IMG/VR virus record: IMGVR_UViG_3300024999_000226
Span: 1 to 38,413 of that record
Length of the DNA: 38,413 nt
Reading direction: 5' to 3' (one strand)
Source of the DNA: a virus
Below, in pieces: positions 1 to 38,413 of the stretch (position 1 is its first letter; the number at the start of each line of letters is the position of its first letter). The notes under the pieces were generated by a model that searched no databases, was not told the DNA's origin, and saw only the letters and a list, made by a program, of their open reading frames with translations. The translations under genes were made by a program, and so were the position numbers.

Positions 1-567
1 GTTCTACTTTCCGCGCTTGTCGTTGACCTCCCGCGCGTTCGGGTCGGGGAAGCAGTAGAACGGGTCTCCACTCTCAAAATCGATCGCGCCAACACCCATC
101 AGCGCCTTCTGGTCAAACCCCATGTACCCGAAGCCAGTGCCGTAAAAATGCGCGTCGTAAATGTTTTCGGCCAATTGCATGAGCCAGTTACCCCGGTCCC
201 AATCGCTTGCCGCAACGTCCGAAAGAACCTTGGCGAACTCCATGTCAGATGGCTCTTGGGGCATGTACTCAAACCGCGGGCGGGCGTCCGTCAGAATGGG
301 AATAACGCTCTGAATGCTCTGAAAAATGAAGTTGATGACTTCAGAGTGCCGGTAGGAGGGGCGCTGCTCCTTCCACTGCTTGCCTCTGAACATCTTGTAG
401 TTATCGAGCCACTTCTCGTCGTATTTCTTGCGGTGTTTCTTGGCCTTGTCAAACAGCCCATTCACGAGCTTGATTGCCCGTTTCTCTTCGGCGTTTGGGG
501 CGTATCCCCCCGGCTGCGTGGACAGATCGGGCGCCTGGTGCTCTTGAAGCATTGGAATCTCAGCCAT
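1..567 (-). CDS. Portal protein, N-terminal part (continues at the other end of the contig)
   Basis: This is the first part of the phage portal, the dodecameric ring at the capsid vertex through which DNA passes. The start is ATG at 567, sharing one base with the TAA stop of the upstream zinc-ribbon gene. The reading frame meets a stop at 4..6 only because the first five bases of the contig differ from the copy near 38283..38287. From position 6 the sequence equals 38288..38413, and there the frame continues with Phe-Phe-Ile-Tyr. Joined to 37002..38413 the protein is about 615 residues, a usual size for a P22-like portal. The N-terminus is charged and helical (KKHRKKYDEKW), followed by a segment typical of portals around RGKQW and ILTDARPRFEY. 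Confidence 0.88.
6..131. repeat. Terminal direct repeat, left copy (contig circularity)
   Basis: These 126 bases are identical to 38288..38413 at the other end, and bases 1..5 do not match. An exact overlap of this size at contig ends is what a de Bruijn assembler leaves on a circular or circularly permuted genome. It could also reflect a real terminal repeat. Because the repeat lies inside the portal gene, the assembly explanation is far more likely. The unit genome is then about 38,282 bp. Confidence 0.9.
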
Positions 568-908
568 TAGTCGTCGCTCTCCCAGCGCTTTTTGCGCTTG
601 GCTTCTCGGTCTTCGCTAAATGTTTTGTGAATTGTGTCTGGCTTCTTGAAGTCGTTCCCGATCTCAACCAGTCCGCGGCGCTTGCAGATGTCGTCTTTGT
701 GAGCTTTGTTCTTCACCACGCACCCAAGCCCTGGGTTGTATTCTGCGTGCGTCACTGCAGCGCCAGAGAAGTAAACACGAGTCGGCACAAAGACGCGCTC
801 GGCTGGGGCGCCGTCGTGTGGGCAGAACTCGTTAACGTCGATGTCCTTCACAGACTTTACAACGTCGAACTTCTGCTCGCACTTTACACAGCGGTACTCG
901 TAGATCAT
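567..908 (-). CDS. FmdB-family zinc-ribbon protein
   Basis: This 113-residue protein opens with MIYEYRCVKCEQKFDVV and has a second Cys at EFCPHDG, the N-terminal zinc ribbon of the FmdB/CxxC regulatory family (Y-x-Y-x-C-x2-C-x3-F-x-V). The remainder is basic and ends in KRKKRWESDD. It lies between the large terminase and the portal, and its stop overlaps the portal ATG by one base (TAATG), so the two are probably co-translated. The start ATG at 908 has GAGGATCC just upstream. Its role is unknown. In this position it may help packaging or regulate late genes, which is inference. Confidence 0.75.
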   Translation of the reverse strand: MIYEYRCVKCEQKFDVVKSVKDIDVNEFCPHDGAPAERVFVPTRVYFSGAAVTHAEYNPGLGCVVKNKAHKDDICKRRGLVEIGNDFKKPDTIHKTFSEDREAKRKKRWESDD

Positions 909-926
909 GGGATCCTCGGTGCTCTG

Positions 927-966
927 CTGTAATTTGTAAGGGATTAAGTTTTAGATTCTGTAATTT
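927..966 (-). repeat. Tandem TAATTT/TAAGTT hexamer array (late-junction repeat 1)
   Basis: On the plus strand, TAATTT at 930, TAAGTT at 945 and TAATTT at 961 are spaced 15 and 16 nt, with CTGTAA framing the outer copies at 927 and 958. On the coding (minus) strand the unit reads AACTTA/AAATTA followed by CAG. The array begins at the TerL stop codon and ends about 20 nt before the FmdB start. The same arrangement recurs at four other late gene junctions. Confidence 0.6.
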
Positions 967-2284
967 ACGAAAAGCGCTCTTCGTCGCGCCGCTTGTAGCT
1001 GTTCTTGAGCTCGTCCAATCTATTCTTATACTTTTTACTCTGTCCTGCAACCTTTGGCGAGTGCTTTTCTTCCTTGCGGTAGGTCATCATCGTCAAGTAG
1101 CGGTCCACGTCCATGCAGTGGTTCGACTGATCCACCGGGTTTTGTTCTTTCGAGTTCTCGTCTGGCTTCAAGTCCTTGGCTTCTGGATAGTGGTAGGTTT
1201 CCCGCTCGTCCGCGCTGTGCGGGCAGTGCCCCTTGAATTCCTTGTACTTCCTGCTTTTCACCAGCTCGTAATGCAGATCGATGCCGCGGCGGATGTCGTT
1301 ATCGGCGCCCTCCGCGGGGCACCCGTTTCGATTCATCTCCTCGATGTATCCGGGCTGCGATGGGTCGCAGAAAAACCTCTGCACTCCGAACACCTGAATC
1401 TTTTGCTTCGCAACCTGGATGATGTCGGTAATCGTGAGCTTGTTTTTCACGAATTCGGACACTCCATAGTGCCGGCCGTCCGGTGTAATGGCCCTGATCT
1501 TGAGTGCGAACGGGTCGGGATAGTATCCCCAGTCGATGCCGCCGTAGTACCTCGTGCCCACCGGCAACTGAAACGGATCGACAAGGTTTTGCGGATCGTC
1601 CCAGCAGTCATAGACCAGCCCCTCCATGCGGTTCCACTCGCCGCCGTAAATCATGTTGAAGCGCCGGAGGTCCATCGTGGCACGTTTTTCCGCTAGTTTC
1701 TTGGGGTCGTGCAGTGAATGGTATGGATTTTCCCATGATGCGGCCGAGATGACTTCCAGATCTTCGGTTCGTCGCCCGGACTTCCACGGTTTGATGAGCT
1801 CGGTGTAGATCCAGTTCAGCGCGTAGGGTGATGTGGTCAGGTCGATACCGCACCCGCAGAAGTCGGCGCGGGCTTGCATGTTCTCCCAAAAGTAGAGGCG
1901 GTACTTTCCTGCCTCGTCACCCCATATGTGCTTTACGTTCGTAATGCCGACGATCGAGTCTGGGTCAGTCTCCGTTCGACAGTAGACCGTGCCGCCCGAG
2001 TGCATTTTAAAAACGTCGTCTTTCTTGTTGTAGACGCCATAGCCGTCCATGAGCCGCAGGAACGCCGGCATTGTGGATTGCATAAGCGTTTTATAGGTCG
2101 GTGCGGTGATGATGAAGTTGTCAGCGGGATCGGTGTACTGGTGGAGCTTCATCTTCATGCGAAGCCCACCCACTTGGGTCTTACCCCACTGGGTGCCGGT
2201 GCCTAAAAGCAGGATGCGCTTGGGCGTGAACAGCGCGCGCTCCTGGTTCTTACTGTGTGGGGTGAACTCTAGGGCGTCTGACAG
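965..2284 (-). CDS. terL: Terminase large subunit
   Basis: This is the packaging motor ATPase and nuclease. The frame runs upstream of the GTG at 2173 and there encodes the Walker A loop GTGTQWGKT (codons near 2190..2216) preceded by DALEFTPHSKNQ, the usual adenine-binding leader. Walker B is HIWGDEAG. The C-terminal RNase H-like nuclease has GIDWG, FFCDPS and a final Asp in MDVDRYL. No ATG, GTG or TTG occurs between the in-frame TAA at 2321..2323 and Walker A. I place the start at CTG 2284, giving MSDALEF, which makes about 439 residues, a normal TerL length. The start codon is the weak point; the identity is firm. Confidence 0.88.
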   Translation of the reverse strand: MSDALEFTPHSKNQERALFTPKRILLLGTGTQWGKTQVGGLRMKMKLHQYTDPADNFIITAPTYKTLMQSTMPAFLRLMDGYGVYNKKDDVFKMHSGGTVYCRTETDPDSIVGITNVKHIWGDEAGKYRLYFWENMQARADFCGCGIDLTTSPYALNWIYTELIKPWKSGRRTEDLEVISAASWENPYHSLHDPKKLAEKRATMDLRRFNMIYGGEWNRMEGLVYDCWDDPQNLVDPFQLPVGTRYYGGIDWGYYPDPFALKIRAITPDGRHYGVSEFVKNKLTITDIIQVAKQKIQVFGVQRFFCDPSQPGYIEEMNRNGCPAEGADNDIRRGIDLHYELVKSRKYKEFKGHCPHSADERETYHYPEAKDLKPDENSKEQNPVDQSNHCMDVDRYLTMMTYRKEEKHSPKVAGQSKKYKNRLDELKNSYKRRDEERFS

Positions 2285-2310
2285 GATACACGTCCGGCGT
2301 TTGAGGTGTC

Positions 2311-2335
2311 CTGTAAGTTGTTATTTCTGTAAGTT
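2311..2335 (-). repeat. Tandem CTGTAAGTT pair (late-junction repeat 2)
   Basis: Two exact copies of the nonamer CTGTAAGTT (2311..2319 and 2327..2335) lie 16 nt apart, between the stop of the 97-residue gene and the large terminase. On the coding strand they read AACTTACAG. The in-frame stop that bounds TerL upstream (2321..2323) lies inside the array. Confidence 0.6.
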
Positions 2336-2346
2336 AAGCGTGGGAG

Positions 2347-2640
2347 CTACCTCCGCATGCTGGCCGCCCTGAGTTCGTCCCACCACTTGTCTCTACCGTG
2401 TCTGGTGAAAGCCCATATATTAATTCTAGAAACAACAAACGCCCCCCACCGCTCGCCTCTATTCATGGCTCGGTAATATGCTCGTTTTCTTATTGGCCTG
2501 CTGCCTCCATCAAACGAAGGACCGGAAAAGGCGAGGAATGGCGGTCCTTTCTTCTTGGTCTCAGCATAATTAAGCCCATCCGCCTTGGGCGCCGAATGCC
2601 TATAATATCTTGGTGGCGGTGCCGGTTCGCACTTGTTCAT
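2347..2640 (-). CDS. Hypothetical protein between NeuB and TerL
   Basis: This 97-residue protein is not recognised. It is basic and aromatic-rich, with a proline stretch near the start (EPAPPPRYYRH) and Trp/Arg pairs toward the C-terminus (HGRDKWWDELRAASMRR). Its ATG overlaps the TGA of the NeuB-like gene (ATGA), so translation is probably coupled. No cysteine motif or membrane segment is visible. It may have travelled with the synthase gene or may be an ordinary packaging-region gene. Confidence 0.6.
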   Translation of the reverse strand: MNKCEPAPPPRYYRHSAPKADGLNYAETKKKGPPFLAFSGPSFDGGSRPIRKRAYYRAMNRGERWGAFVVSRINIWAFTRHGRDKWWDELRAASMRR

Positions 2641-3617
2641 ACATCCCCCGGCCCGATCCCATCGCCCGCGGCAATCGCTGCCTTGGCGGTCTTGCCGTGA
2701 ACCTGACCAACGGCAAACGGGCTTAACCCTTTTATGTCGTCCTTCAGGCTCCTGTAAATTCCGAAGTTCACGCCCTCCTGGAGCACATCACCGGGAGCAA
2801 TGTCTCGTGTTGCGATCAGCCTCCGGTTATGCCGGGATACCATGTCGTTTTCTTCGCCAGTATACCCAATGCGAGGAACTAGGCTACCTCGAACGGCCTG
2901 CACCATGGTCTTAAACTGGTCGACGTTAAGCGAGTGGTCCCGGTCTGGCGTGTCCACGTCTGGAATTGCTGTGAAGTGCTTCTCTATTACCGCCGCACCC
3001 TTAACCGCTGCGCGCCTTGGAATCTCCGCAATGTCCAGCGTGTGGTCTGAGAATCCAACCGGGCGCTTGAAGCGCTTGCGAAGCAGGCTCATCACCCGAA
3101 GGTCAACGTGCTTTGCCGGGTAGTTCGCTACGCAGTACATAAGCGTGGTCGGCGTGCTTCCGAGGTGGTCCAGCGCATAACCTATGTCGTGCCCTCCGTG
3201 CGCTCCGGTGGAGAGAATCACGGGCTTGCCGTAGCCGCGGAGCTTTTCTAAAATCCTGATGTGGCTCATCTCAGCTGACGCCACCTTGTGTCGGGTCACG
3301 AACGGATTCACGGCGTCGTACAGTTCCGGACTGAACGCTGAGCACATGAACTCAATCCCAACCGAGTCGGCCTTTTGTTTCAAGTGTGGGAGCCAGTCGA
3401 GGGGAAGCGCACCGTCAAGCTTCGGCACGGGGTGGACATTGCCGCCGTCGTCGTCCGCCATGTAGGTGTGTGCTAATCCGTGTCCATAAAGCGAATACCA
3501 ATTAAACGCCTGAAACTTCACCGCGTCCGCTCCCGCTGCCTTGGCCATCGCAATCGAGTGCCGGCAGTCGTTCAGGTCGCGCCAATTTGAGCCGCATTCG
3601 GCCACGATAAACGTCAT
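2637..3617 (-). CDS. neuB: NeuB-family nonulosonic acid synthase
   Basis: Members condense phosphoenolpyruvate with a 6-carbon N-acyl amino sugar to make a 9-carbon nonulosonic acid (sialic, legionaminic or pseudaminic). All family landmarks are present in 326 residues. They are IVAECGSNW at the N-terminus, AGADAVKFQAF, KVASAEMSHIRIL, KPVILSTGAH, YCVANYPA, VGFSDHT, VIEKHFT and DRDHSL of the TIM barrel. A C-terminal SAF domain follows (RLIATRDIAPGDVL, GLSPFAVGQ). The start ATG 3617 is chosen because AGGAGAACAA precedes it and it overlaps the small terminase stop (ATGA). It is thus translationally coupled into the packaging operon, between TerS and TerL. Which acid it makes cannot be read from sequence alone. 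Confidence 0.92.
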   Translation of the reverse strand: MTFIVAECGSNWRDLNDCRHSIAMAKAAGADAVKFQAFNWYSLYGHGLAHTYMADDDGGNVHPVPKLDGALPLDWLPHLKQKADSVGIEFMCSAFSPELYDAVNPFVTRHKVASAEMSHIRILEKLRGYGKPVILSTGAHGGHDIGYALDHLGSTPTTLMYCVANYPAKHVDLRVMSLLRKRFKRPVGFSDHTLDIAEIPRRAAVKGAAVIEKHFTAIPDVDTPDRDHSLNVDQFKTMVQAVRGSLVPRIGYTGEENDMVSRHNRRLIATRDIAPGDVLQEGVNFGIYRSLKDDIKGLSPFAVGQVHGKTAKAAIAAGDGIGPGDV

Positions 3618-4048
3618 TTGTTCTCCTGTAAGTCCTGCTCTGTTCCCAAAACAACCTCGGTTCCGTCCGACCGCTTGATGACACATGGCTTCGGGAAGTT
3701 GTGGTTGAGGTCCACGCTCTCCTTGAGCACTCCGAGCGTTTTTAAAATCGCCTTAGCTGACTGAAACGCCGAGCCGGCCATTCCGAACTCCTGCTTGTTG
3801 TCCATCATGAACTCGAGTGTATCTATCGCATTGGACATCAGGAGGTGGATCCGCTGGGTTCCGAGAGAGACAAGCGCCTTAGCCTCATCCGAGTTCAGAA
3901 CTTTTGACACCACTTGTCGAGAAACGCCGTATTCCTGCGCAATTTCCCCCGTGGTTTTCCCTTTCATGGCCTCGCCCATTATTGACTGGTTGCGTAATGC
4001 CTTACCATTTGAGTCTTTTTTTCGTCTAGTTTTGGTGCGTTTTGTCAT
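3614..4048 (-). CDS. terS: Terminase small subunit (HTH DNA-binding)
   Basis: This is a DNA-recognition subunit of the packaging motor. A basic N-terminus (TKRTKTRRKKD) is followed by a helix-turn-helix: MKGKTTGEIAQEYGVSRQVVSKVL. The rest is a helical stretch, with the C-terminus ending QDLQENK. Length is 144 residues from ATG 4048. The frame is open to a TTG at 4087, but a good -35/-10 pair overlaps that stretch, so transcripts would begin at about 4053 and ATG 4048 (or a later ATG) must be used. The assignment rests on the HTH, the size, and the position upstream of TerL. An unrelated HTH protein is possible. Confidence 0.65.
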   Translation of the reverse strand: MTKRTKTRRKKDSNGKALRNQSIMGEAMKGKTTGEIAQEYGVSRQVVSKVLNSDEAKALVSLGTQRIHLLMSNAIDTLEFMMDNKQEFGMAGSAFQSAKAILKTLGVLKESVDLNHNFPKPCVIKRSDGTEVVLGTEQDLQENK

Positions 4049-11650: not shown

Positions 11651-12712
11651 TCATTTTATCAACTCCCGAAATTTTCCCGAATTGATGGAAACCACTTCGA
11701 GCATCTGGGAGGCTTTCAACTGCCCGTAAACTTCATCGAGCACCTGGAGGCTCATCCCCGTATACTTGGCTACCTTGACCGGCGCAACCCCCTGATCAAG
11801 CGCATTCCTGACAAAAGTATGCCGGAAATCGTGAAACCGTCCGGTAACCTTTGCCCTGCGCTTGCACGCCTTCCATGCGGTCTTGTTTGACGTGCTCGAG
11901 GATGCATGGTCATAACGAGACCTAAAAACATACTCACCCATGCCAGGCGTGATTCGTGACTTGAGCACATCGACGGCCTCGGGCGTCAAAGGGAAGGACC
12001 GCCCATAGCGCGTCTTCGTGTCCTCTGGAAGCAGGTTAATCACCCGCTCCTTGAGGTCCACCCTCGACCACTTGAGGTGCAGGATTTCGCCCTTTCGCAT
12101 ACCGGTGTGGATGGCCAGAACGATCTGATGATTCAGGTCCTTGCTTGCCGCCTTCAATAGCTTTCTGATCTCGGCGGTTGAGAACTCTTTCCCGGCCTGG
12201 GTCGGCAGATCCGGGTTTGCAATCTTAATCCGGCGCTTCACATAGCCGCGGTCAAATGCGTGCTTGAGAATCATCCGGAGGTATTTGTGATGATTGAGGA
12301 ACTTCATGGTCGGGCGCGTGGCCCGCTTGTCCGTTATGTACCGCTCCCAGTGGGTTTCGGTCACGTCGTCGATATAGGGACAGTTTACGTTGAACCACGG
12401 AACGAGGTGTTTCTCGATGTGTAATTCAGCGTTATTCAGCGTCTTCGGAGCGCGGTTGATCTTAGTGTCCAGCACCTCTTTGCCCACATCCGCAAACGTC
12501 TTGACGTGGCGCATGGGGTTCTTTCCGCCCGTCAGTATCTCCGCCTTGAGCCGCTCACCCTTTCGGATGGCGTCTTTGAGAGTGGTAACGTCGGGCCCGA
12601 GGCTCTTTTCCTGCTGGCCCACTCCCTTTCGAAAAAACGAGATGTAATATCGACCGCTCTCTGGATGACGTTTCAGCCATTCCGGGGCGTTCTCGACTGG
12701 AAGGAGTTTCAT
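11651..12712 (-). CDS. int: Tyrosine integrase
   Basis: This 353-residue site-specific recombinase has an N-terminal arm-binding/SAM-like part (TFADVGKEVLDTKI onward). The catalytic domain from about 185 has Arg in IHTGMRKGEIL, Lys in DTKTRYG, HDFRHT (His-x-x-Arg) and Tyr in LDEVYGQL. The usual second His/Trp of the LGH motif is replaced: the sequence reads KYTGMSL, with Met at that place. Its start shares a base with the excisionase stop (TAATG), and attP lies directly past its 3' end. Its position inside the early operon suggests it is made with the recombination genes. Confidence 0.93.
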   Translation of the reverse strand: MKLLPVENAPEWLKRHPESGRYYISFFRKGVGQQEKSLGPDVTTLKDAIRKGERLKAEILTGGKNPMRHVKTFADVGKEVLDTKINRAPKTLNNAELHIEKHLVPWFNVNCPYIDDVTETHWERYITDKRATRPTMKFLNHHKYLRMILKHAFDRGYVKRRIKIANPDLPTQAGKEFSTAEIRKLLKAASKDLNHQIVLAIHTGMRKGEILHLKWSRVDLKERVINLLPEDTKTRYGRSFPLTPEAVDVLKSRITPGMGEYVFRSRYDHASSSTSNKTAWKACKRRAKVTGRFHDFRHTFVRNALDQGVAPVKVAKYTGMSLQVLDEVYGQLKASQMLEVVSINSGKFRELIK

Positions 12713-12930
12713 TACCCGACCCTACGCTCCATTGTGATCTGAATGAATTTCCGAACGTCTTCTTCTCTGAACCTGACAAACCGGTTCCGCACCTTGAAGT
12801 AGGGCGGCGCACAACCGTCAACGATCCAGTGATTCAACGTGCTCACGGCAATTCCGAGCAACTCCGCTGCCTGCTTTTTACTGAGAAATCCGTCGAATGC
12901 TTCAATCTCAGCGGCTTTTAATTTTTTCAT
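12712..12930 (-). CDS. Excisionase / AlpA-like MerR-type HTH
   Basis: This 72-residue protein starts at ATG 12930 after GAGGGAAT. It contains the short winged HTH of helix-turn-helix family 17 (FLSKKQAAELLGIAVSTLNHWI, then PPYFKVRNRFVRFREEDVRKFI). Located immediately before int and overlapping it by one base, it is most simply the directionality factor. Confidence 0.8.
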   Translation of the reverse strand: MKKLKAAEIEAFDGFLSKKQAAELLGIAVSTLNHWIVDGCAPPYFKVRNRFVRFREEDVRKFIQITMERRVG

Positions 12931-12959
12931 ATTCCCTCTTCTCTCCATTCAAATTCTCA

Positions 12960-18184: not shown

Positions 18185-18416
18185 CGTCCTTCTGCTCGCG
18201 CATCCACGCCGCAGCGTCATCAAGCACTTTGGGCTTTTTGCGTTCTTTTTGGCGCCTAAGCAGTAATGGCCCGCCCGGCACAGCAACAGGGGGTTGATGA
18301 GGATCCCGCTCTAGATATCGCATACACAACGCACGAGCGACGACCCACCCACTCAGCGCGCTTAACGCTAAACAGATGAGCGTCCAGATAACGACCGTCC
18401 CGATAGTAAAAGTCAC
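18165..18416 (-). CDS. Small N-terminally anchored membrane protein
   Basis: This 83-residue protein starts at GTG 18416 with GAGGG 8 nt upstream. The N-terminal membrane helix is TIGTVVIWTLICLALSALSGWVVA, followed by a basic cytoplasmic tail (RRQKERKKPK). It overlaps the last 161 nt of the acetyltransferase in another frame and its end overlaps the plus-strand gene by 20 nt. It reads like a genuine small membrane protein, which makes the long acetyltransferase tail suspect. Confidence 0.55.
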   Translation of the reverse strand: MTFTIGTVVIWTLICLALSALSGWVVARALCMRYLERDPHQPPVAVPGGPLLLRRQKERKKPKVLDDAAAWMREQKDAREPRA

Positions 18417-18858
18417 GCCTTACGCCCTCTTTCTGGAATCCAATTTTCTCAAACATCCGGCACGCTGCATTGCCTTCGAAAGACTCGCCCCATACGAGAT
18501 TAATCCCAAGCGTGTCAAACGCATGATCTAGAAGGGTTTGCAGCGCTTGCGATCCGAGCCCCTCGCCCTGGTGGTCCGGCGCGATGTACAAAGAGAATTC
18601 CGCCCGGTGATTCCAGGGGTCGATCGACGTAAGCCCGCAGACACCGACAGCCACGTTCCCAGAGTTGTAAATCATGTACATCTTGATTGCGGGATCCTCG
18701 GACTGTTTCCTAAACCACCGCTCTTGATCTACGTCTGAAATCAAGTCGTTCTGCCGGCAGGTTTTCCAAACGCGGTAATCATTTCTCCACGTCCGGAGCG
18801 TTTCATTGTGTCCGCTGTCGATGGGCCCCAGTCTTACGCCGCGCCCGTGATCAATCAT
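18256..18858 (-). CDS. GNAT acetyltransferase, PseH-like
   Basis: This 200-residue protein starts at ATG 18858 behind CGGAGATGATGAA. The GNAT core is clear: RLGPIDSGHNETLRTWRND, then FSLYIAPDHQGEGLGSQAL (acetyl-CoA loop QGEGLGS) and GNAACRMFEKIGFQKEGV near the end. This order and FSLYI-type strand are those of PseH/RimJ-like sugar N-acetyltransferases. These acetylate the C4 amine of UDP-4-amino-4,6-dideoxy sugars in pseudaminic and legionaminic acid synthesis. The family normally ends about residue 170; the last 30 residues (Cys/Arg-rich) overlap another gene and may be a read-on tail. It closes the sugar cluster. Confidence 0.8.
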   Translation of the reverse strand: MIDHGRGVRLGPIDSGHNETLRTWRNDYRVWKTCRQNDLISDVDQERWFRKQSEDPAIKMYMIYNSGNVAVGVCGLTSIDPWNHRAEFSLYIAPDHQGEGLGSQALQTLLDHAFDTLGINLVWGESFEGNAACRMFEKIGFQKEGVRRDFYYRDGRYLDAHLFSVKRAEWVGRRSCVVYAISRAGSSSTPCCCAGRAITA

Positions 18859-19145
18859 TTCATCATCTCCGCCACGGTTCGAGCCAACTTGACGACGTCA
18901 AGGATATTGGCGTTTTCACCGTCTGTAATTCCAACCCAAGCCTTGAGCTCTGCCTTGTACTCTTCTTTTCGCTTAGTGAGCTCTTGGGCTGCCGCGTCGA
19001 TTTTGTCTTGATACTCTTTTTCAAGTTCGCTTTTTTTCTGGGTGAACTCTTGGACGATTTCGCGCTTTTTGCCCTCGAAGATTGCGGCAAGGTCTGTGAT
19101 TTCTTCCTGACGTTTCGTGAAATGCTCGATTTTTTCATTGATCAT
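18855..19145 (-). CDS. Coiled-coil protein inside the sugar cluster
   Basis: This 96-residue protein starts at ATG 19145 after GAGGAAACT. It is a continuous coiled coil rich in Lys/Glu/Gln (REIVQEFTQKKSELEKEYQDK). Its ends overlap the aminotransferase stop and the acetyltransferase start, both as ATGA. No function recognised. It is the only non-enzyme in the cluster. Confidence 0.65.
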   Translation of the reverse strand: MINEKIEHFTKRQEEITDLAAIFEGKKREIVQEFTQKKSELEKEYQDKIDAAAQELTKRKEEYKAELKAWVGITDGENANILDVVKLARTVAEMMK

Positions 19146-20374
19146 AGTTTCCTCATTTTTGCCGCAAACGGCGTTGTTGGCATGTCGCCGGTTAGTTTCA
19201 CACTCCCGGTTTTGATTCGGGTCAAAACGTCTTGAGACGTGCTCAAAACCTCATCCATCACGTCGATGTGAGGGAAGTTGAAGAACCAACTAGGTCCGAA
19301 AATCACACCCGCGCGGCACATCTCCTGCCAGAACAGCGCCTTCACGAGTTCGTCACCCTTAAACGCTCCCCGGGTCGCGTAACCGTCGATCCGAAGTTTG
19401 TCCGGCCACATCGCATTAAACAGCGTCATGAACCGCCACCCCTTTTCCCAGAGGTGCCCAATATCGTACTTACCCGACTGGAGCAGGGTCATGGTTTTGA
19501 GCGCAGCCGCAAGCGACAAAGTTTCCCCAGCAAACGTGGAGCTGACGAACCACTCCCCGCAGTCCATGACCGCAGCCCGCCCCCCAACGACAGAAATGGG
19601 CATTCCGTTCCCCATGGCCTTACCCAGGCAGATCAGATCAGGCGTGATGCCCCAAAACCTCGAGACGCAGTATTTCTCGAACCGGAAACCTGTGATTACT
19701 TCGTCGAAAATCAGCAACGCACCGGACTCGTCGCATTTCTGGCGCAGAGCCTTTAACCACTCAATGCGATCCTTTGAGCCATCAAGAATAATCGGTTCAA
19801 CGATGACGCCGGCCACACCAGAAAAGTCCTGTGCGCCGAGCACATGAATCGCCTGCGGCATCGGAACGCCGAGCGCCGGCGGAGTAAGGGACACAAAGCC
19901 GTCATGCCATCCGTGATAGCCATCGCTTAAAATCAGATCCCGGCCGGTCTTTGCTCGAGCAATTCGCACCGCCGCCGAACAAGCATCACTGCCGGTTTTC
20001 AAAAACCGAATTTTGTCGATAAACGGAAACAGCTCTTTCACCTTCTCGGCAGTCCGCACCTCGAGGTCAGTTCCTAGCGACAGCGTTGCACCGCGGTTCG
20101 CCTGTTCCGCCATGGCTTGGTTTATCTCTGTATTTGCATACCCGAGGAGGTTCGACCCGAGCCCACAGATGAAATCAACGTACTTTTTCCCGTCGGTGTC
20201 CCATACGTGGCACCCCTGCCCCCTCGCAAGATGCGTTGGGTAGACTCCGTTGACAAGGCAGATCGGGCGCTTGCTGTTGGTCAGCGAGCCGTGAGCAATC
20301 GACTCCTCGGCTCTGTTTTGCCAGGTTTGATTCGTTTTTAATTCCTTAAAATCTGTGAACCGATTGTTTTCCAT
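19142..20374 (-). CDS. Class III PLP aminotransferase (glutamate-1-semialdehyde aminomutase-like)
   Basis: This 410-residue protein starts at ATG 20374 behind GGAGAAATTAC. The motifs are GCHVWDTDGKKYVDFICGLG, the phosphate-binding RFLKTGSDACSAAVRIAR, DGYHGWHDG, LLIFDEVITGFR (Asp to pyridine N) and ICLGKAMGNGMP (Schiff-base Lys). This is fold type I, class III. Ordinary PseC/LegC are DegT-family enzymes, so this is a different solution. HemL-like aminotransferases do occur beside SpsF and NeuB homologues in bacterial glycan islands. It likely aminates a keto-sugar made by the dehydratase at 21673. Confidence 0.85.
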   Translation of the reverse strand: MENNRFTDFKELKTNQTWQNRAEESIAHGSLTNSKRPICLVNGVYPTHLARGQGCHVWDTDGKKYVDFICGLGSNLLGYANTEINQAMAEQANRGATLSLGTDLEVRTAEKVKELFPFIDKIRFLKTGSDACSAAVRIARAKTGRDLILSDGYHGWHDGFVSLTPPALGVPMPQAIHVLGAQDFSGVAGVIVEPIILDGSKDRIEWLKALRQKCDESGALLIFDEVITGFRFEKYCVSRFWGITPDLICLGKAMGNGMPISVVGGRAAVMDCGEWFVSSTFAGETLSLAAALKTMTLLQSGKYDIGHLWEKGWRFMTLFNAMWPDKLRIDGYATRGAFKGDELVKALFWQEMCRAGVIFGPSWFFNFPHIDVMDEVLSTSQDVLTRIKTGSVKLTGDMPTTPFAAKMRKL

Positions 20375-21065
20375 GTAATTTCTCCGCTGTATCAATGGCC
20401 ATTTTCACGCGGTCGTATGCTGCACGAACGCGCTCAAGGTCTTCGATGGTATCAACTGACAACTTAAGATTCGACTGGTCGAGGTGCCCGATGACGTGCC
20501 CCACGCGTGCCCACTCTGGGGGGTTGGATCTCGCGTAGGTGGTCACGTGCTCGCGGTCCTTCGGTTCCGTGGCGTTTTTCAGCATGTAGTCGAGCATTCG
20601 GCGGGAAATAACCTCGCAATCAACTCCGTCAATAGAAGTTCTGCACTGCTCGTCCACGTTTGAAACGTAGTCATAGGCGTTAATCGTCGCTACCTTGATG
20701 TGTTTTGTGATCAGGTAGGGCGGAATCAGGGGGCAATCAGCCGTGATGCGGACGATGTAGTCGGCCCCAGTCCTGTCCGCGAGAATCCCGTAGCGCGCAA
20801 GAACGTCATGTTCCGGCCCCTCGATGATGATGGATTTCTTCTTGAACGCGGGAATGATCTCGTCTCCCGAAGGTACGGCGAGGGCCACCTTCACGAGGAC
20901 GTGCGTCTTGTGGGTGTGGTTGTTCATGTAGAACGCTGCTCGATCACACGAGTCAATGACATGCTTTAGGATGGGCTTTCCGTCGATGGTTTCAAACACC
21001 TTCCGTGGAAACCGCGTGGACGTGGAACGAGCCTGAATCCCGATGACTACTGTTGTGTATTCCAT
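20346..21065 (-). CDS. SpsF/NeuA-like cytidylyltransferase
   Basis: This 239-residue protein shows the CMP-sugar synthetase signature VVIGIQARSTSTRFPRKVF, a P-loop-like nucleotide site with K, and HDVLARYGILADRTGADYIVRITADCPLI (metal-binding D-C-P). Family members activate 3-deoxy-sugar acids (Neu5Ac, legionaminic, pseudaminic, Kdo) with CTP. SpsF forms are those of polysaccharide and spore-coat clusters. It overlaps the aminotransferase by 29 nt and the oxidoreductase by 19 nt, so it is one operon. Confidence 0.87.
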   Translation of the reverse strand: MEYTTVVIGIQARSTSTRFPRKVFETIDGKPILKHVIDSCDRAAFYMNNHTHKTHVLVKVALAVPSGDEIIPAFKKKSIIIEGPEHDVLARYGILADRTGADYIVRITADCPLIPPYLITKHIKVATINAYDYVSNVDEQCRTSIDGVDCEVISRRMLDYMLKNATEPKDREHVTTYARSNPPEWARVGHVIGHLDQSNLKLSVDTIEDLERVRAAYDRVKMAIDTAEKLHGKQSVHRF

Positions 21066-21673
21066 TTCTTCTTGTCCATTTCCGCGGTTCTTTCATGAGC
21101 CGCTAGCAATTCTCCCAAGTCCTGCTGTGGCTCGGAGAACCATTTCTGCATGTAACCGATATAAGCCGCATCCATGTGGTCTAGGCGAATGGGCCGGCCA
21201 TTGAGGGTGCAGCGCCAAATCGGGCTTGTTTCAGCGATGGTCACCTCACCTCGTGCGATGCCGATGATCTGCAAACAGTCCCAATAAATTCCATCTGCAC
21301 CATGCTTGAAGTAGTTGTAATGGGATCGCCCGTAAGACGTCGGGGTGTCGAGCATCTTGTACTGGTTGATCATGCGAAATGGAGTTTTGGACTCCTTGAT
21401 TTCGTCAAACAGCGCCTTTAACTCCTGAGGATTTTTAATAATTGGCTTTTCGCAGAGAATGGGTACCCTGTGCGGCAAAAATAGTCTTACGTGCTCAGCG
21501 TGAAGCGCTGTCGGGGTGGCGATAATAACCCCCTCAGACTGCCTAGCCCGGTCACAGATGTACGGCGCGCTGTGCTCTTTATCGACGCCCACGTATTCCT
21601 TGCCGAGATAATCGAGAATGGCCCGATACCTGCGCCCCATGTTCCCGTTTGCGCCAACGAGAAGAATTGACAT
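21047..21673 (-). CDS. Gfo/Idh/MocA-family oxidoreductase, short form
   Basis: This 208-residue protein has an N-terminal Rossmann fold (MSILLVGANGNMGRRYRAI) and the family's substrate-side motif VPILCEKPIIKN (E-K-P). The usual C-terminal alpha/beta domain is much reduced, since normal members are 330-380 residues. Close relatives such as PtmF sit in legionaminic acid loci. It may reduce or oxidise a sugar intermediate, or bind one. Start ATG 21673 shares a base with the dehydratase stop. Confidence 0.75.
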   Translation of the reverse strand: MSILLVGANGNMGRRYRAILDYLGKEYVGVDKEHSAPYICDRARQSEGVIIATPTALHAEHVRLFLPHRVPILCEKPIIKNPQELKALFDEIKESKTPFRMINQYKMLDTPTSYGRSHYNYFKHGADGIYWDCLQIIGIARGEVTIAETSPIWRCTLNGRPIRLDHMDAAYIGYMQKWFSEPQQDLGELLAAHERTAEMDKKKWNTQQ

Positions 21674-22530
21674 TACGAATTCCCCACGATCGGACGGAGC
21701 AACGAAACGAGCTCAAGTTCTGAGTATTGCGCAGAGGAGTCAGACACGAGCCCCGGCAAAAGCGTCTCGTGGATTTTTTCGCCCTGGCGAATACCGAGCG
21801 AAACAATGTCGTACTTGGTTGCTCCGACGATCTTGGCAACCGCAGCGATTACGCTTTTTACGGGTGCGGCCTTTATCGGAGGAATGTTGACAGCGTGGTG
21901 CCGATAATAGTTCTCGATCATGAACTCGGCGGCGTCCTCAATGCGGATCCAAAACCGGGTCATATCCGGATCGGTGAGATAGGCTTTGTTTTCAGTTATC
22001 AACGTTTTTGCGAACACTCCAATCACGGAGCCACGGGAACCGAGCACATTACCCCACCGAAACACGCTGAATCGCGTGGTGTGCTGGGTGTGGTTCAGCC
22101 GAAGCAGAATCTTTTCAGCGATGCCCTTGCACATACCGTAAACGTTGCATGGTGCAACCGCTTTATCCGTGGAGCTGAACACCACAAATGGCACGTTCGC
22201 ACCGATTGCTGCATCCGCGACGTTCATCACCCCGAGGATGTTTGTCTTTACGGACTCCTCTGGATTTTCCTCTAACGTGTCCACGTGTTTGAGAGCCGCC
22301 AGGAGATAGACGACATCCACGTTGACCATAGCGCGATCAAGAGCGCCGCGGTCGCGCATATCGCCAATGACAAAGCGAAGGTTTGGACTATTCGCAAACT
22401 CTTGCGCCACCTGCTTCTGCTTGAGCTCGTCCCTTGAAAAGCAGACGACATCGTTTTTACCGTTCTCAAGTAGCCTTTTAATGACCTCACGGCCGAGGGT
22501 TCCAGTCCCTCCGATGATTAGGTAGTTCAC
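21673..22530 (-). CDS. NAD-dependent sugar dehydratase, PseB/CapD-like
   Basis: This 285-residue protein starts at GTG 22530 (GTGA overlap with the membrane protein). It has the NAD loop YLIIGGTGTLGREVIKRLL, AALKHVDTLEENPEESVKTNI, the active site SSTDKAVAPCNVYGMCK (S-x-DK and Y-x3-K), RWGNVLGSRGSV, and MTRFWI. These are the landmarks of UDP-GlcNAc 4,6-dehydratases of the PseB/FlaA1/CapD type, the first step toward pseudaminic acid. It lacks the extra membrane part of CapD, so it is a soluble PseB-like form. The step is inferred from family. Confidence 0.85.
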   Translation of the reverse strand: MNYLIIGGTGTLGREVIKRLLENGKNDVVCFSRDELKQKQVAQEFANSPNLRFVIGDMRDRGALDRAMVNVDVVYLLAALKHVDTLEENPEESVKTNILGVMNVADAAIGANVPFVVFSSTDKAVAPCNVYGMCKGIAEKILLRLNHTQHTTRFSVFRWGNVLGSRGSVIGVFAKTLITENKAYLTDPDMTRFWIRIEDAAEFMIENYYRHHAVNIPPIKAAPVKSVIAAVAKIVGATKYDIVSLGIRQGEKIHETLLPGLVSDSSAQYSELELVSLLRPIVGNS

Positions 22531-22733
22531 GCAATGCCCCTCGGAGATCTGAGCAACACGTCTTCCGGGTTAACCCGAGACACACGCACAAGCGCATCAC
22601 CCCGCGTCAGGTCGTGAATGAGTAATCTTGCGTCGTAGGAGGGTTCTTTGTTTGGTGCTTTGATTTTGAGCCACAAAAAGACGTTGGCGCATAAAGAAAG
22701 GACGAGGGCTATTCCACAACCGAAAAGCAGCAT
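22527..22733 (-). CDS. Small N-terminal membrane protein
   Basis: This 68-residue protein starts at ATG 22733 (GGGAG 8 nt before). The frame also opens at 22775 but that lies in a hairpin region. It has one N-terminal membrane helix (MLLFGCGIALVLSLCANVFLWL), then a polar tail. It is the first gene of the sugar operon, coupled to the dehydratase by GTGA. It might be a lysis accessory or a membrane anchor for glycan enzymes. Confidence 0.6.
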   Translation of the reverse strand: MLLFGCGIALVLSLCANVFLWLKIKAPNKEPSYDARLLIHDLTRGDALVRVSRVNPEDVLLRSPRGIA

Positions 22734-22736
22734 CTG

Positions 22737-22757
22737 TAAATCTCCCGTAAGTAAGTT
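22737..22757 (-). repeat. Degenerate late-junction repeat (TAAATC / TAAGTT)
   Basis: TAAATC at 22737 and TAAGTT at 22752 are 15 nt apart, with CTGTAA at 22734. This is a weak member of the hexamer series seen at 930, 2314, 25738 and 36922, again just before a late gene. Confidence 0.35.
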
Positions 22758-22799
22758 ATCTTGCACGATCATCATGCATTACATGTCATAGTGCAAGAT
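22758..22799. promoter_or_regulatory. Long inverted repeat upstream of the sugar operon
   Basis: ATCTTGCAC (22758..22766) and GTGCAAGAT (22791..22799) are perfect 9-bp arms around a 24-nt AT-rich loop. A second short dyad (TATGCA/TGCATA) lies further right. There is no T-run after it, so a simple terminator is unlikely. An operator or an RNA hairpin in the leader of the 22733 gene is more likely. Confidence 0.45.
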
Positions 22800-32134: not shown

Positions 32135-32153
32135 CCGTTACCCCTTCCGGGGG

Positions 32154-32557: not shown

Positions 32558-32917
32558 TTATGCTCCGCAAATGACTTTAAATCCGACTGCGGCCGTTGGT
32601 GCCGAGTCAACTACTACGCGAAAATGACGAAATCCTGTCGGGATCGGGACCATTGCACCGTTTGCCGCAGCCGTAGCCGCCACGATGAACGTTGGGACCG
32701 TAACGGTTGCCGTTGCAAATGGAGGTGTATGCCGGAGCTGGTAATACGTTTCTCCGCCGTCCGCAGAAACATCAAGAGAGATGTTTGCCACCGACGCCAT
32801 CGTTGCCACCTGAAGGTACATGTGGTCGTATGCGCGCTCCACATTGAACGGCAGGGTGGTTTGGCTTGCTCCACCGGCAAGGGTTTTTGAAAAGACGCTG
32901 TGTACGCCGTAACCCAT
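32558..32917 (-). CDS. Small beta-rich virion protein
   Basis: This 119-residue protein is Thr/Ala/Val-rich with alternating beta pattern (YDHMYLQVATMASVANISLD, FATATVTVPTFIVAATAAA). It has the look of a capsid decoration or neck protein. High Ser/Thr content makes it a possible glycosylation target of the DUF115 enzyme two genes upstream, which is inference. Confidence 0.6.
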   Translation of the reverse strand: MGYGVHSVFSKTLAGGASQTTLPFNVERAYDHMYLQVATMASVANISLDVSADGGETYYQLRHTPPFATATVTVPTFIVAATAAANGAMVPIPTGFRHFRVVVDSAPTAAVGFKVICGA

Positions 32918-32918
32918 G

Positions 32919-33185
32919 TTACCGCCCGAAAACGACGATGAACATCGAGTCGCCGCTTGTCGCAGAGTTGATGTTCAAGATACCGTTTCGAGCCGTTGCG
33001 CCCGATCCCACGTTCTGCCGCGCGGTGATACCGGCAGACACGCCCGAGACGACCGACAACGAAAACCCGTCGATGACGGACAGCCCGGTATCCACGTTGC
33101 CGCTGGCGGAGTCGACACTGCAAGAGATCAAAACCACCCGCTTGTTTCCGAAAACAGACATTTCTTTATTGACCGTAAAAGCCAT
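32919..33185 (-). CDS. Small Ser/Thr-rich virion protein
   Basis: This 88-residue protein starts at ATG 33185 after GGGGGATTTT. It is Ser/Val/Gly-rich (DSASGNVDTGLSVIDGFSLS, VVSGVSAGITARQNVGSG) and entirely beta-like. It sits directly after the DUF115 gene in the operon. This is a decoration-type protein by size and place. The number of Ser/Thr residues is notable beside a Maf-like transferase. Confidence 0.6.
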   Translation of the reverse strand: MAFTVNKEMSVFGNKRVVLISCSVDSASGNVDTGLSVIDGFSLSVVSGVSAGITARQNVGSGATARNGILNINSATSGDSMFIVVFGR

Positions 33186-33194
33186 AAAATCCCC

Positions 33195-34208
33195 CTAGAA
33201 TAAAACCTTTTTTTCGCCCGTTTCCGGGTACTCGCACTGACCACGGAGTTCTTCGTGTAAGTTGTGCATTCTCAAAAAGTCTTTAAGTTCCAGTTGCCGC
33301 ACGGCCATGATATTGCCGTCCGGATATGCTCCGAACGTCCCGCCCTCGGTGCAGTTAATGTAAATCCCGGGAATCTTCACGGCCACCCAGTCAAACCATG
33401 CCTTGAAATTTGCGTAGCTCTGCCAGGTCAACACCTTGTTGCCGTACACGTCGATTGCCTTCAGCACGTACCCAAGAGATGCGTCGTATTTAGAGTCCCA
33501 GCCGTGAAACTTCTTGTCGTATGAAAATGCGAAGTCGGCGCCCACAAACGCAGTGGTGCAAGCCCCGAGAATGCCCTTGGCGATGTAGAGACACGCGCCA
33601 AGCACGTTCCCTCCGCTAGACACGTACACATGGAACGGCTCGATCGCCTCAAGCTCCTTCATGTATGCGGTATCGGGAACGGGCGCGTTGAAGAAATAAA
33701 CCTCTCCCTGCCACTTGTCGAAGAGAGCCGGATCCGTTCCGATGAAAGCCAGTAGCTTTTTCCCCTTCGTGCTGGCCCAGTACTCCTCTGGGGTCTTACT
33801 TCCGCCCTCGCTCACCTCTTCGATCACCACAGGACCGGCGTCGAGCGTTACATAGAAATCCGGGCTAATGCCCTGATCTTCAAAAAAATGGTAGTTGTGG
33901 AGACAGCTAATCAGCGCCATTCCATTGCGGTCTTTAAGAAGCGCGCCGTTCACCTTAAGCGATGGTCCGGCTCCGGCCACAATCGCCGGCATGTGGGTCA
34001 GGGTTCCCCATAGCTTCCCGATCGAGTGTTCCTTGAAGCTGCCAAACTTGGCTTTGTTCGCCTTGATGTTCTTCGTCCAGATCTTGGCCCAGTGATTCAC
34101 TGTGACACCGTCAGAGCTCGACGCCTGTGCATACAATTGCGCCGGTTGCACCGGAGGCGCTTCAATATAATTTTGATATTCGAGTAAAATTTCAGCCCTT
34201 CGACTCAC
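33195..34208 (-). CDS. DUF115 / Maf-like glycosyltransferase
   Basis: This 337-residue protein starts at GTG 34208 behind TTGGAGAAATTAAA. The DUF115 core is visible at residues about 75-135: MPAIVAGAGPSLKVNGALL (Gly-rich nucleotide loop G-A-G-P-S) and ISCLHNYHFFEDQGISPDFY followed by VTLDAGP (P-D-x-x-x-x-x-D). Later come VYVSSGGNVLGACLYIAKGI and FVGADFAFSYD. Motility accessory factors (Maf) of this family transfer CMP-activated pseudaminic or legionaminic acid to Ser/Thr of flagellin. Other members are MptE-like pyrophosphokinases. It lies among capsid genes, downstream of a terminator. Given the NeuB pathway in the same genome, glycosyl transfer to virion proteins is the likeliest job. Confidence 0.78.
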   Translation of the reverse strand: MSRRAEILLEYQNYIEAPPVQPAQLYAQASSSDGVTVNHWAKIWTKNIKANKAKFGSFKEHSIGKLWGTLTHMPAIVAGAGPSLKVNGALLKDRNGMALISCLHNYHFFEDQGISPDFYVTLDAGPVVIEEVSEGGSKTPEEYWASTKGKKLLAFIGTDPALFDKWQGEVYFFNAPVPDTAYMKELEAIEPFHVYVSSGGNVLGACLYIAKGILGACTTAFVGADFAFSYDKKFHGWDSKYDASLGYVLKAIDVYGNKVLTWQSYANFKAWFDWVAVKIPGIYINCTEGGTFGAYPDGNIMAVRQLELKDFLRMHNLHEELRGQCEYPETGEKKVLF

Positions 34209-34747: not shown

Positions 34748-35668
34748 TTATGCCGTGGTGGCCGACAAGCGACCATGCAGGCGGTTATTGGACGAACCCA
34801 GTGCGCCAGCCCAGAAGATCTTGGCGACCTTCACATTCTGGTTGATGGGCTTCATGAACGGTTCGAACCGCATGTCCTCGTCTTTGTGGACGAAGAGGTG
34901 CAGATAGTTCTCGTTCAAGAAGAACATGTTACTGGCCGGGCAGTAGCTGTCCGCGATCACGGGCTTACCGTTGAACATCAGAGAACTAAACCCGCCCTTG
35001 ACCGTTTCGCTGTCCATGAACCGCTGCTGCGGCTGGAGCAACCCGTAGTACGAGTTATACAGCGTGCGCGTCGTGATGATGAGGGTCGGCGCATCGTTGT
35101 TAACAGTACACGCGTTATCGCGGCTCTGCATGGCTGCGATGGAAAGGGTCGTGGTGGTTGAGTCCACCTGCGCCTGCCACCATGAATAGCTGGTCTGCGA
35201 AATACCGCCAACCGTCTGATCGACGGCGACGATGTCGCGCAAGCCAACAATGGATTTAGAGTCAGTGCCGTCCGAATAAAGGCCGGTACCGAGCTTGTCG
35301 TCCATGGTCTTCTCGGCGATCTTCACCTTGTTTTTCACAAGGCTCAAAATCTGAGAGTCGCCCGAGTTTTTCAGCTCATCAATGCGATTGATGCTGATAT
35401 TCGCGTACAGCTGTTTCCAGGTGTACTCAGCCGCCGTGATGATCTCGTTATCGGTCGTCTGGAGCGTTTCCGAACCAGTGTACCAGCCACTCGAAGTCAC
35501 CTGAGCATAGTTGAGCGGTACAACAATGCGCTCGCCGCCGTCCACCTTCTCGTAGAACTTCTTTTTAGCTCTCTGGAGAAGAGGGTTGGAGTCGAACACC
35601 GCGTCGTACAGCTTAGGAATGAACTTTTTCTGCGTGATCGCAGAAATTTGATCATACGTTAAAGCCAT
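34748..35668 (-). CDS. Major capsid protein
   Basis: This 306-residue protein starts at ATG 35668 with GGGGGTAAT upstream. HK97-type features are an N-arm (DQISAITQKKFIPKLYDAVF), the E-loop region (YEKVDGGERIVVPLNYAQV), a P-domain helix (LVKNKVKIAEKTMDDKLG) and A-domain motifs (CTVNNDAPTLIITTRTLYN, SLMFNGKPVIADSYC). It lies after the scaffold gene. No prohead protease gene is seen. The fold assignment is by pattern. Confidence 0.85.
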   Translation of the reverse strand: MALTYDQISAITQKKFIPKLYDAVFDSNPLLQRAKKKFYEKVDGGERIVVPLNYAQVTSSGWYTGSETLQTTDNEIITAAEYTWKQLYANISINRIDELKNSGDSQILSLVKNKVKIAEKTMDDKLGTGLYSDGTDSKSIVGLRDIVAVDQTVGGISQTSYSWWQAQVDSTTTTLSIAAMQSRDNACTVNNDAPTLIITTRTLYNSYYGLLQPQQRFMDSETVKGGFSSLMFNGKPVIADSYCPASNMFFLNENYLHLFVHKDEDMRFEPFMKPINQNVKVAKIFWAGALGSSNNRLHGRLSATTA

Positions 35669-37001: not shown

Positions 37002-38413
37002 TTAGGCCGCGGGAGGGGGCGCTTTGGCTGCGGCCTGTGCTTGTGCTTTCTGTGCGTTGCGTTGCTCCACCCTCTGCCAGACCGCTTCGGCGTTCGGGAA
37101 GTCGACGGACTTCAGGAGTTCGAGTTCGTCAATCGCTCCAATCTCCGCGAGCTTAAACGCGAGGTTGGCCTTCTCCGTCTTCGCAAACGGCAGGCTTGAA
37201 CCCGTGGAAACTTTCACGTCAAAGTCACCCTTGAGGATGTATTGCTTCGCCTCTAGGGACTCCTGAAACCCGCCTTGCTCATCCTGAACGTAGGGCCTGA
37301 CCGTGGCTTGCTTGACTTTAGTTCCATCCTCCATGTCCACGTTCTCAATGTGAAACTTAAAATACTTCTGCGCGTTTTGGTCGTTCGTGAGCCGGATGAT
37401 ACGCGGGGCTGAGTAAAACTGAAACACTCGGTTCTTGTATAGCTGGCCCAGTGCCTGAAGGTACGCGTCGATATTCCGAGACTTCTGCCTGAGTCTGGTT
37501 TGAGCGGCTTCTTGAAGGTTCGATATGGCAGATGCTGCGGTCACGCCCTCCGGTCGAACCCCCCGGGTAACATCGTTCGCGCCAGAGATACCGTCGAACC
37601 AGTTCGCCATGCGGTCGATGAGTTGGAGCACGTACGGCTGGAGCTGGACGCCCTCCTCGCGCTGGACCTGGCTGATGTCATCGGCCTCGATGATAAGCCC
37701 GGGCCGGTTGAACAGGTTGTCAGTGTCTACCCCGGATCCAGTGCCCACCTTCCACACGGGATTCCCCATGAGAGTAAGCACGTCAAGCGCGTAGCTCACG
37801 AGCTTGTTGAAGATCTTCTGCGGGCTCTCGAGCTGCTCAACTTCGCTCATTCCCCAAAACTCACGGGGGAGAATGTAGTTCACAAGCCGGGCATAAGGAA
37901 ATAGCCCGTCCTCAAACTGCTGCGGGCCGTCCTCGCACAGCACCCCGCCGGCAATGACAACTTTGCGCCCGTTAGGGTACTTGAGCTTCTGGATAAACTT
38001 GGTCTGCTCCACGCCGACCTCGTCTAGTTCCTTCGTTTCCTCCTCGAAGAACTCATCCGATTTGATGTAAGCCGTGATTTTAAGGCTTTGGTTCTTTCCG
38101 TCCGCTTCGTGAGTGGAGGAGCCCTCCATGGGCGTCTTCGTGTCAACCGGAGACTTGAACTTGATCTCGCCCAGGTCCGTCTTATCCCCTGCGATCAGGT
38201 CCATCAGGTCTGGCTTGAAGTGGTCCTTGTGCTCTGGGTACTCGGCCTTGAGAATATCCACATCTACCGGCTCGGCGTAGATAAAGAACTTTCCGCGCTT
38301 GTCGTTGACCTCCCGCGCGTTCGGGTCGGGGAAGCAGTAGAACGGGTCTCCACTCTCAAAATCGATCGCGCCAACACCCATCAGCGCCTTCTGGTCAAAC
38401 CCCATGTACCCGA
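37002..38413 (-). CDS. Portal protein, C-terminal part (begins at the other contig end)
   Basis: This holds the remaining 470 or so residues of the portal whose start is at 567. Typical segments are QFEDGLFPYARLVNYILPREFWGMSEV and NKLVSYALDVLTLMGNPVWKVG. Others are DGISGANDVTRGVRPEGVTAASAISNLQEAAQTRLR (the portal stem/clip region conserved in P22-like portals) and an Ala/Pro/Gln-rich tail (AQAQAAAKAPPPAA). The stop is at 37002..37004, followed by the head-operon promoter element. Confidence 0.9.
   Translation of the reverse strand, partial: GYMGFDQKALMGVGAIDFESGDPFYCFPDPNAREVNDKRGKFFIYAEPVDVDILKAEYPEHKDHFKPDLMDLIAGDKTDLGEIKFKSPVDTKTPMEGSSTHEADGKNQSLKITAYIKSDEFFEEETKELDEVGVEQTKFIQKLKYPNGRKVVIAGGVLCEDGPQQFEDGLFPYARLVNYILPREFWGMSEVEQLESPQKIFNKLVSYALDVLTLMGNPVWKVGTGSGVDTDNLFNRPGLIIEADDISQVQREEGVQLQPYVLQLIDRMANWFDGISGANDVTRGVRPEGVTAASAISNLQEAAQTRLRQKSRNIDAYLQALGQLYKNRVFQFYSAPRIIRLTNDQNAQKYFKFHIENVDMEDGTKVKQATVRPYVQDEQGGFQESLEAKQYILKGDFDVKVSTGSSLPFAKTEKANLAFKLAEIGAIDELELLKSVDFPNAEAVWQRVEQRNAQKAQAQAAAKAPPPAA
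38288..38413. repeat. Terminal direct repeat, right copy
   Basis: Identical to 6..131. Here the portal frame reads through without the stop seen at the left end, so this copy carries the correct sequence context on its left side. Confidence 0.9.

Follow-up and report, generated by a model that had tools for sequence, protein, structure and literature searches.

Why should a phage keep a gene for a sugar-acid synthase among the genes that package its DNA? The question is raised by a virus record in IMG/VR that is 38,413 bases long (the window, by which the whole stretch of DNA that was analysed is meant). A direct repeat of 126 bp is found at both contig ends (6-131 = 38288-38413), which makes the window an essentially complete genome of a phage in circularly permuted form. 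Almost every gene recognised in it is read from the minus strand, and the portal gene, listed below in two parts, runs round the contig ends.

Identity and junctions of neuB

The synthase gene and the packaging and head genes that follow it are:

3614..4048, minus strand: TerS-like gene with an HTH, putatively the small terminase (match to PHROG 2538, terminase small subunit, at 5e-6, a modest score)
2637..3617, minus strand: neuB/pseI-type nonulosonate synthase with a SAF domain (Pfam NeuB 5.5e-52, SAF 6.6e-6)
2347..2640, minus strand: 97-aa open reading frame of no known family, with an ATGA overlap with neuB (weak PHROG match only)
about 2269-965, minus strand: terL, large terminase (PHROG 2 5.2e-39; PBSX-type TerL TIGR01547 1.6e-16)
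567..908, minus strand: zinc-ribbon protein between terL and portal (Zn_ribbon_8 8.7e-8, slightly under the curated cut-off)
4..567, minus strand: portal, N-terminal part (P22_portal 1.4e-6)
37002..38411, minus strand: portal, remaining part (homologous to the portals of all 27 genomes compared)
34748..35668, minus strand: major capsid protein (PHROG 9953 1.5e-65)

The zinc-ribbon gene is conserved in 26 of the 27 genomes. Elsewhere in the window, 7433-8344 (minus strand) encodes a pentapeptide-repeat protein with asparagine/glycine/serine repeats that is related to PHROG 14105.

The neuB product of 326 aa, which starts at the ATG at 3617, belongs to the NeuB/PseI family (PF03102; 177 bits against a curated cut-off of 22.1) and ends in a SAF domain (27 bits against 21). 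When its profile was compared with solved structures, the best match was the pseudaminic acid synthase of C. jejuni (8h2c, 8.7e-53); SpsE was second, and sialic acid synthases also ranked below 8h2c. Across 11 phage sequences, 45 columns were found to be invariant, including KFQ, SDH, E-x-H and the arginine of the SAF domain; K34, H192, H214 and R289 are among the invariant residues and were aligned to 8h2c. The SDH and E-x-H motifs presumably provide the metal-binding histidine pair, and the lysine the PEP site. Values of dN/dS were between 0.18 and 0.33 (three pairs). The NCBIfam equivalog cut-offs for N-acetylneuraminate and pseudaminate synthase were missed (165.6 against 399.65 and 143.5 against 340.25 bits), and the exact sugar product is therefore not fixed by sequence.

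Two variants of the protein were seen in related phages. At several loci (L141, L155, L157, L163, L166 and others), the terL-linked NeuB is only about 230-265 aa long, which leaves no room for a whole C-terminal SAF domain. In G023 (contig 2-1549, plus strand, locus L214), NeuB shares an open frame with about 250 preceding residues of a structural-looking protein, most of which are missing from the copy at the other contig end; the joined frame is either an assembly variant or a true fusion.

An earlier note on this DNA had described neuB as coupled to the small terminase gene by an ATGA, with its ribosome site inside the end of terS. Both features were confirmed: the stop and start codons overlap at 3614-3617, and an AGGAG lies a few bases 5' of the neuB ATG, within the end of terS (TTACAGGAGAACAAATGA). 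The same join to the next gene was also claimed. The overlap is indeed present (2637-2640), but the gene that it leads to is the 97-aa frame, which has no match in Pfam or NCBIfam, and not terL, which comes after it. That the 3614-4048 gene is a terminase subunit, a premise of the earlier note, agrees with PHROG 2538 and with its position, from which it is called TerS-like; no Pfam family exceeded its cut-off. Homologues of this gene are present in four of the 27 genomes, and an unrelated small gene (o24) takes its place in the others.

The start of terL is unusual. The first ATG/GTG/TTG (2173) comes only after the Walker A motif, GTGTQWGKT, and no such codon occurs in frame ahead of the motif at 2170-2330 (minus strand). 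An alignment of relatives places the start at a CTG (LSDALEF versus MSADAIEF), which suggests that terL probably begins at the CTG near 2269; either a rare start codon or a sequence error would account for the missing usual one.

Conservation of the neuB-terL order

A first scan of IMG/VR with NeuB alone gave 13 loci, one of them the window phage itself; of the 12 others (34-55% identity), 11 had neuB ahead of a homologous terL. A second scan was anchored on TerL and covered the best 80 loci, of which 71 were testable, meaning that neuB was present or that at least 1.2 kb lay upstream. In 60 of the 71, neuB precedes terL on the same strand, a count obtained with a TerL alignment built from neuB-linked phages and with some near-duplicate contigs. 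Overlapping frames of neuB and terL were present in 27 of these 60 loci when the longest-ORF starts were used. As to the 11 loci that have no neuB nearby, G012 carries one 5.6 kb upstream, and several are short contigs. Anchoring on NeuB gave 54 loci with a terL of the group, on the same strand every time. The two anchored scans reject chance or a single odd insertion. The earlier note had regarded neuB as inserted between two terminase genes and had asked for a database check of the order; the location was upheld, and the arrangement is, rather than an insertion, the gene order normally seen in these phages.

Host contamination as the source of neuB was also rejected: phage genes surround it, its GC content (0.579) is close to that of the genome (0.544), the contig is self-closing, and a second contig (L001) is identical. 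A quick tree of 105 sequences separates the terL-linked NeuBs from the others by a single branch (SH-aLRT 98). The gene is present in 25 of the 27 genomes, a count that takes in G024 and leaves out G022, where a 419-aa protein was rejected as NeuB since it had been grouped only through the fused ORF in G023. The distances between NeuB proteins track those between TerL proteins (Mantel r 0.54, p 0.001), with r values of 0.59 for portal and 0.24 for capsid. In one pair of genomes, G013 and G021 (L194/L195, L210/L211), the portal and capsid are almost identical while neuB is 76% and terL 91% identical, as if neuB-terL had been swapped as one block. A search of INPHARED (50,697 phage records) gave two distant matches only for NeuB, and no match to the CMP-synthetase or the Maf-like protein described below.

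The distal sugar cluster and the Maf-like transferase

The idea that NeuB works alone was rejected, as the same genome holds other genes of the pathway beyond the tail genes:

22527..22775, minus strand: small protein containing a single hydrophobic segment, encoded at the start of the sugar cluster (from translation; family in 18 genomes)
21673..22530, minus strand: PseB-like UDP-sugar 4,6-dehydratase (Polysacc_synt_2 6.9e-71; PseB the best NCBIfam match, 2.9e-71, under the equivalog cut-off)
21047..21673, minus strand: short Gfo/Idh/MocA-type oxidoreductase (1.6e-9, over cut-off)
20346..21065, minus strand: CMP-sugar (nonulosonate) synthetase (CTP_transf_3 3e-15; CMP-KDO synthetase-like)
19142..20395, minus strand: class-III PLP aminotransferase (Aminotran_3 2.4e-44; GSA-aminomutase-like)
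18855..19145, minus strand: 96-aa charged, probably coiled-coil protein (from translation; family in 4 genomes)
18256..18858, minus strand: GNAT N-acetyltransferase, closest to PseH (Acetyltransf_3 4.6e-18; PseH 1.2e-22, 80.7 bits against a cut-off of 93.1)

PseB, PseH and, for NeuB, the PseI structure 8h2c are the best matches, at scores that do not reach the NCBIfam equivalog cut-offs. We judge the enzyme assignments to be very probably right. Among the window proteins scanned, which are part of all ORFs, there was no match to a PseG-type UDP-sugar hydrolase and no DegT-type PseC, in whose place the class-III aminotransferase is found. Relatives with records of at least 32 kb have the CMP-synthetase in 18 of 19 cases and the aminotransferase in all 19, the copy in G020 being degenerate.

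The comparison of the 27 genomes gave the gene order neuB, terL, zinc ribbon, portal, x, capsid, x, Maf, small beta proteins, tail genes, fibre, dehydratase, Gfo, CMP-synthetase, aminotransferase, acetyltransferase, so that in the relatives the morphogenesis module is flanked by neuB at one side and by the other sugar genes at the other. In the closed genome G020, five genes are absent at once (neuB and those for the CMP-synthetase, the dehydratase, Gfo and GNAT), Maf is kept, and the leftover aminotransferase is without the PLP lysine; this coupled loss, one case, supports a single pathway. The closed genome G022 has the other sugar genes and no neuB, and supply of the missing step by the host is possible.

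Some cluster genes vary in layout. In G004 (L007, contig 1342-2937, minus strand) and G018 (L074, contig 30950-32539, plus strand), which are divergent phages, the aminotransferase carries an in-frame polar insert of about 130 residues at the same site; an intein was rejected for both, as classic intein ends and motifs were not seen by eye. In G013 and G021, an enlarged ORF for the CMP-synthetase (462 codons) and the lack of a separately called Gfo gene suggest a fusion.

A candidate for the enzyme that would use the activated sugar lies two genes past the major capsid gene and is followed by two small proteins:

33195..34208, minus strand: Maf-like (PF01973) putative nonulosonate glycosyltransferase (Pfam 5.2e-19, over cut-off)
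32919..33185, minus strand: small Ser/Thr-rich all-beta protein directly after Maf (family in 25 genomes, median S+T 20%; AF2 pLDDT 86)
32558..32917, minus strand: second small Ser/Thr-rich protein (family in 21 genomes, median S+T 21%)

The Maf-like protein scores 69.1 bits for PF01973 against a cut-off of 34.6 and has no PHROGs match at E 0.01. Its AlphaFold (AF2) model (pLDDT 92.4) matches the Magnetospirillum Maf 5mu5 with Z 22.2 and an rmsd of 2.9 over 241 residues. The next matches are archaeal MptE (Z 14.6) and the sialyltransferases ST8SiaIII and CstII (about 10), for which CMP-sialic acid is the donor. PF01973 also includes MptE, a pterin diphosphokinase; this function is less likely for 33195-34208 by fold score. 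With 337 aa against 666 for Maf, and an aligned part that covers only residues 238-514 of 5mu5, the protein consists of the central Maf domain and lacks the N- and C-terminal ones. The name Maf-like was chosen because only the central domain is present and there is no flagellin neighbour. PF01973 is over cut-off in 20 of 20 large genomes, and the gene lies between the capsid and other structural genes in every genome covering the region.

Bacterial Maf enzymes work in the cytoplasm, where they use CMP-nonulosonates as donors and modify flagellin at Ser/Thr (PMC11339370, PMC4065374); the donors that they accept include CMP-Neu5Ac and CMP-KDO (PMC11339370). In the window phage, the two small Ser/Thr-rich proteins, the capsid and the fibre proteins are reasonable candidates for the acceptor. 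The predicted fold of the 32919..33185 protein gave weak matches only, the best to phage tail-fibre tips (Z 7.8), and it may be an acceptor or a head decoration; the 32558..32917 protein is likewise a candidate acceptor.

Probable destination of the sugar

The earlier note had assigned neuB a virion-related role from its place among the packaging genes. The role is supported, mainly by evidence beyond that note's, namely the pathway genes after the tail genes and the Maf-fold glycosyltransferase two genes after capsid. We consider it probable that the phage makes a CMP-activated nonulosonic acid, which the Maf-like enzyme puts on the phage's own particle. The PseB-like dehydratase, the aminotransferase and the PseH-like acetyltransferase would produce an amino-sugar, for which the host may supply the PseG-type UDP-sugar hydrolase; NeuB would join this to phosphoenolpyruvate, giving a pseudaminic/legionaminic-type nonulosonic acid (a relative of sialic acid), and the CMP-synthetase would activate it. 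In the cytoplasm, the Maf-like enzyme would then place the sugar on Ser/Thr residues of a virion protein, either ahead of assembly or while it proceeds. The packaging and morphogenesis module opens with neuB and ends with the other sugar genes, and the whole set is therefore probably expressed late, alongside the structural proteins. We infer the virion target from gene position, conservation and the modelled Maf fold. Points against this model are the missing Maf domains, the inclusion of MptE in PF01973, the lack of neuB in G022, a Maf without the pathway in G020, and the lack of a PseG-type or DegT-type PseC match among the proteins scanned.

The chief rival is that the sugar goes on the host surface (capsule, LPS, flagellin or pilus) and alters receptors, either in a lysogen or before lysis against sticking to debris or superinfection. 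Prophage enzymes do alter nonulosonates of the host capsule in Acinetobacter (PMC12053666), flagellin is the target of the Maf relatives with known function, and the window phage has two genes of interest here:

11651..12712, minus strand: tyrosine integrase
12712..12948, minus strand: excisionase-like gene

Because of these two genes, the window phage may be temperate, which weakens the earlier note's argument against lysogenic conversion; the argument gains from the group. An integrase is present in only seven of 20 genomes, a serine recombinase in none of the 20, and five closed circular relatives with neither a tyrosine nor a serine integrase (G015, G016, G018, G019, G024) carry neuB, CMP-synthetase and aminotransferase; the sugar trait is therefore not tied to lysogeny. 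While lysogenic-conversion cargo (a moron) is accessory, variable and apart from structural operons, neuB is present in 25 of the 27 genomes, shares the strand and module of terL, and diverges as structural genes do. Modification of the host surface is unlikely, considering that closed integrase-free genomes retain the sugar genes and Maf, that Maf lies between capsid and other structural genes wherever the region is covered, and that the genes are inherited like the structural core in phages that span 38.6-58.2% GC and therefore probably infect diverse hosts.

Alternatively, the CMP-sugar could be meant for phage DNA or some other target inside the cell, the Maf-like protein being a nucleic-acid or pterin-type transferase. 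Packaging genes adjoin neuB, DNA is often modified by phage glycosyltransferases (PMC12619734), and MptE falls within PF01973 with a fold score of Z 14.6. We regard this as very improbable, however, given the clearly better fold match to Maf, the nonulosonate-type pathway genes, the sialyltransferases as nearest other folds, and the window proteins scanned, among which no DNA-base hypermodification genes were recognised in the general family scans. Least probable of all is a passenger role for neuB, which would then be a gene of host origin that came to lie beside terL by drift and has no particle-linked function. Sugar loci of host type (L015, L016) do contain NeuB homologues, and neuB is missing from G022, but its single origin, its presence in 25 of 27 genomes, purifying selection, the kept catalytic residues, and its co-occurrence with a distant cluster, including the coupled loss in G020, all speak against it.

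Returning to decoration of the particle, we hold with somewhat less assurance that, on balance, it extends to the whole uncultured podovirus-like group, whose core trait would be virions coated with a sialic-acid-like sugar, the donor being largely phage-made and the single-domain Maf acting on capsid or decoration proteins.

Significance and comparison with known systems

Sugar genes in phages are commonly interpreted as accessory cargo with an effect on the host surface. In the present group, which is large and diverse, consists of small tailed phages and has no cultured close relative, inheritance of the synthase, the other pathway genes and a suitable transferase resembles that of capsid and terminase. 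We know of no earlier phages that synthesise and wear a nonulosonic acid, and literature searches in an open-access library gave no report of a phage that combines a nonulosonate pathway with Maf. If the model is true, these would be, to our knowledge, the first such phages, the sugar possibly serving assembly, adsorption or as a cloak. Decoration of the virion with a sialic-acid-like sugar thereby becomes directly testable, both as to the carrier protein and as to the need of the particle for it, and a function is suggested for phage proteins that are now annotated only as 'MptE-like'.

The Maf-dependent O-glycosylation of flagellin with pseudaminic or legionaminic acid (Campylobacter, Aeromonas, Clostridium, Magnetospirillum Maf 5mu5) shares with the window phage the PseB, PseH and PseI/NeuB types, a CMP-sugar synthetase and a PF01973 Maf-fold transferase. 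It differs in that the setting here is a phage with no flagellin, that a single central-domain transferase adjoins the capsid gene, and that a class-III aminotransferase and Gfo/Idh are found instead of PseC, with no PseG found. Mycobacteriophages that glycosylate their virions reportedly use host sugar nucleotides. The glycosyltransferase is phage-encoded both in those phages (Freeman et al. 2023, as cited in PMC12619734) and here, and modification of capsid or tail proteins, shown for mycobacteriophages, is what we infer for the window phage. The legionaminic-type sps pathway of Bacillus subtilis, to which SpsE belongs (PMC7439481), yields a spore-crust polysaccharide of the bacterium itself, unlike the phage setting. 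The epaA/epaB genes of Acinetobacter prophages (PMC12053666) are, as here, phage genes acting on pseudaminic-type sugars, but they add an accessory step to a host-made sugar of the host capsule, whereas the window phage holds a near-complete core pathway in its morphogenesis module. Compared with the mycobacteriophages, too, the window phage has most of the donor-sugar pathway in addition, and its sugar would be of the sialic-acid type.
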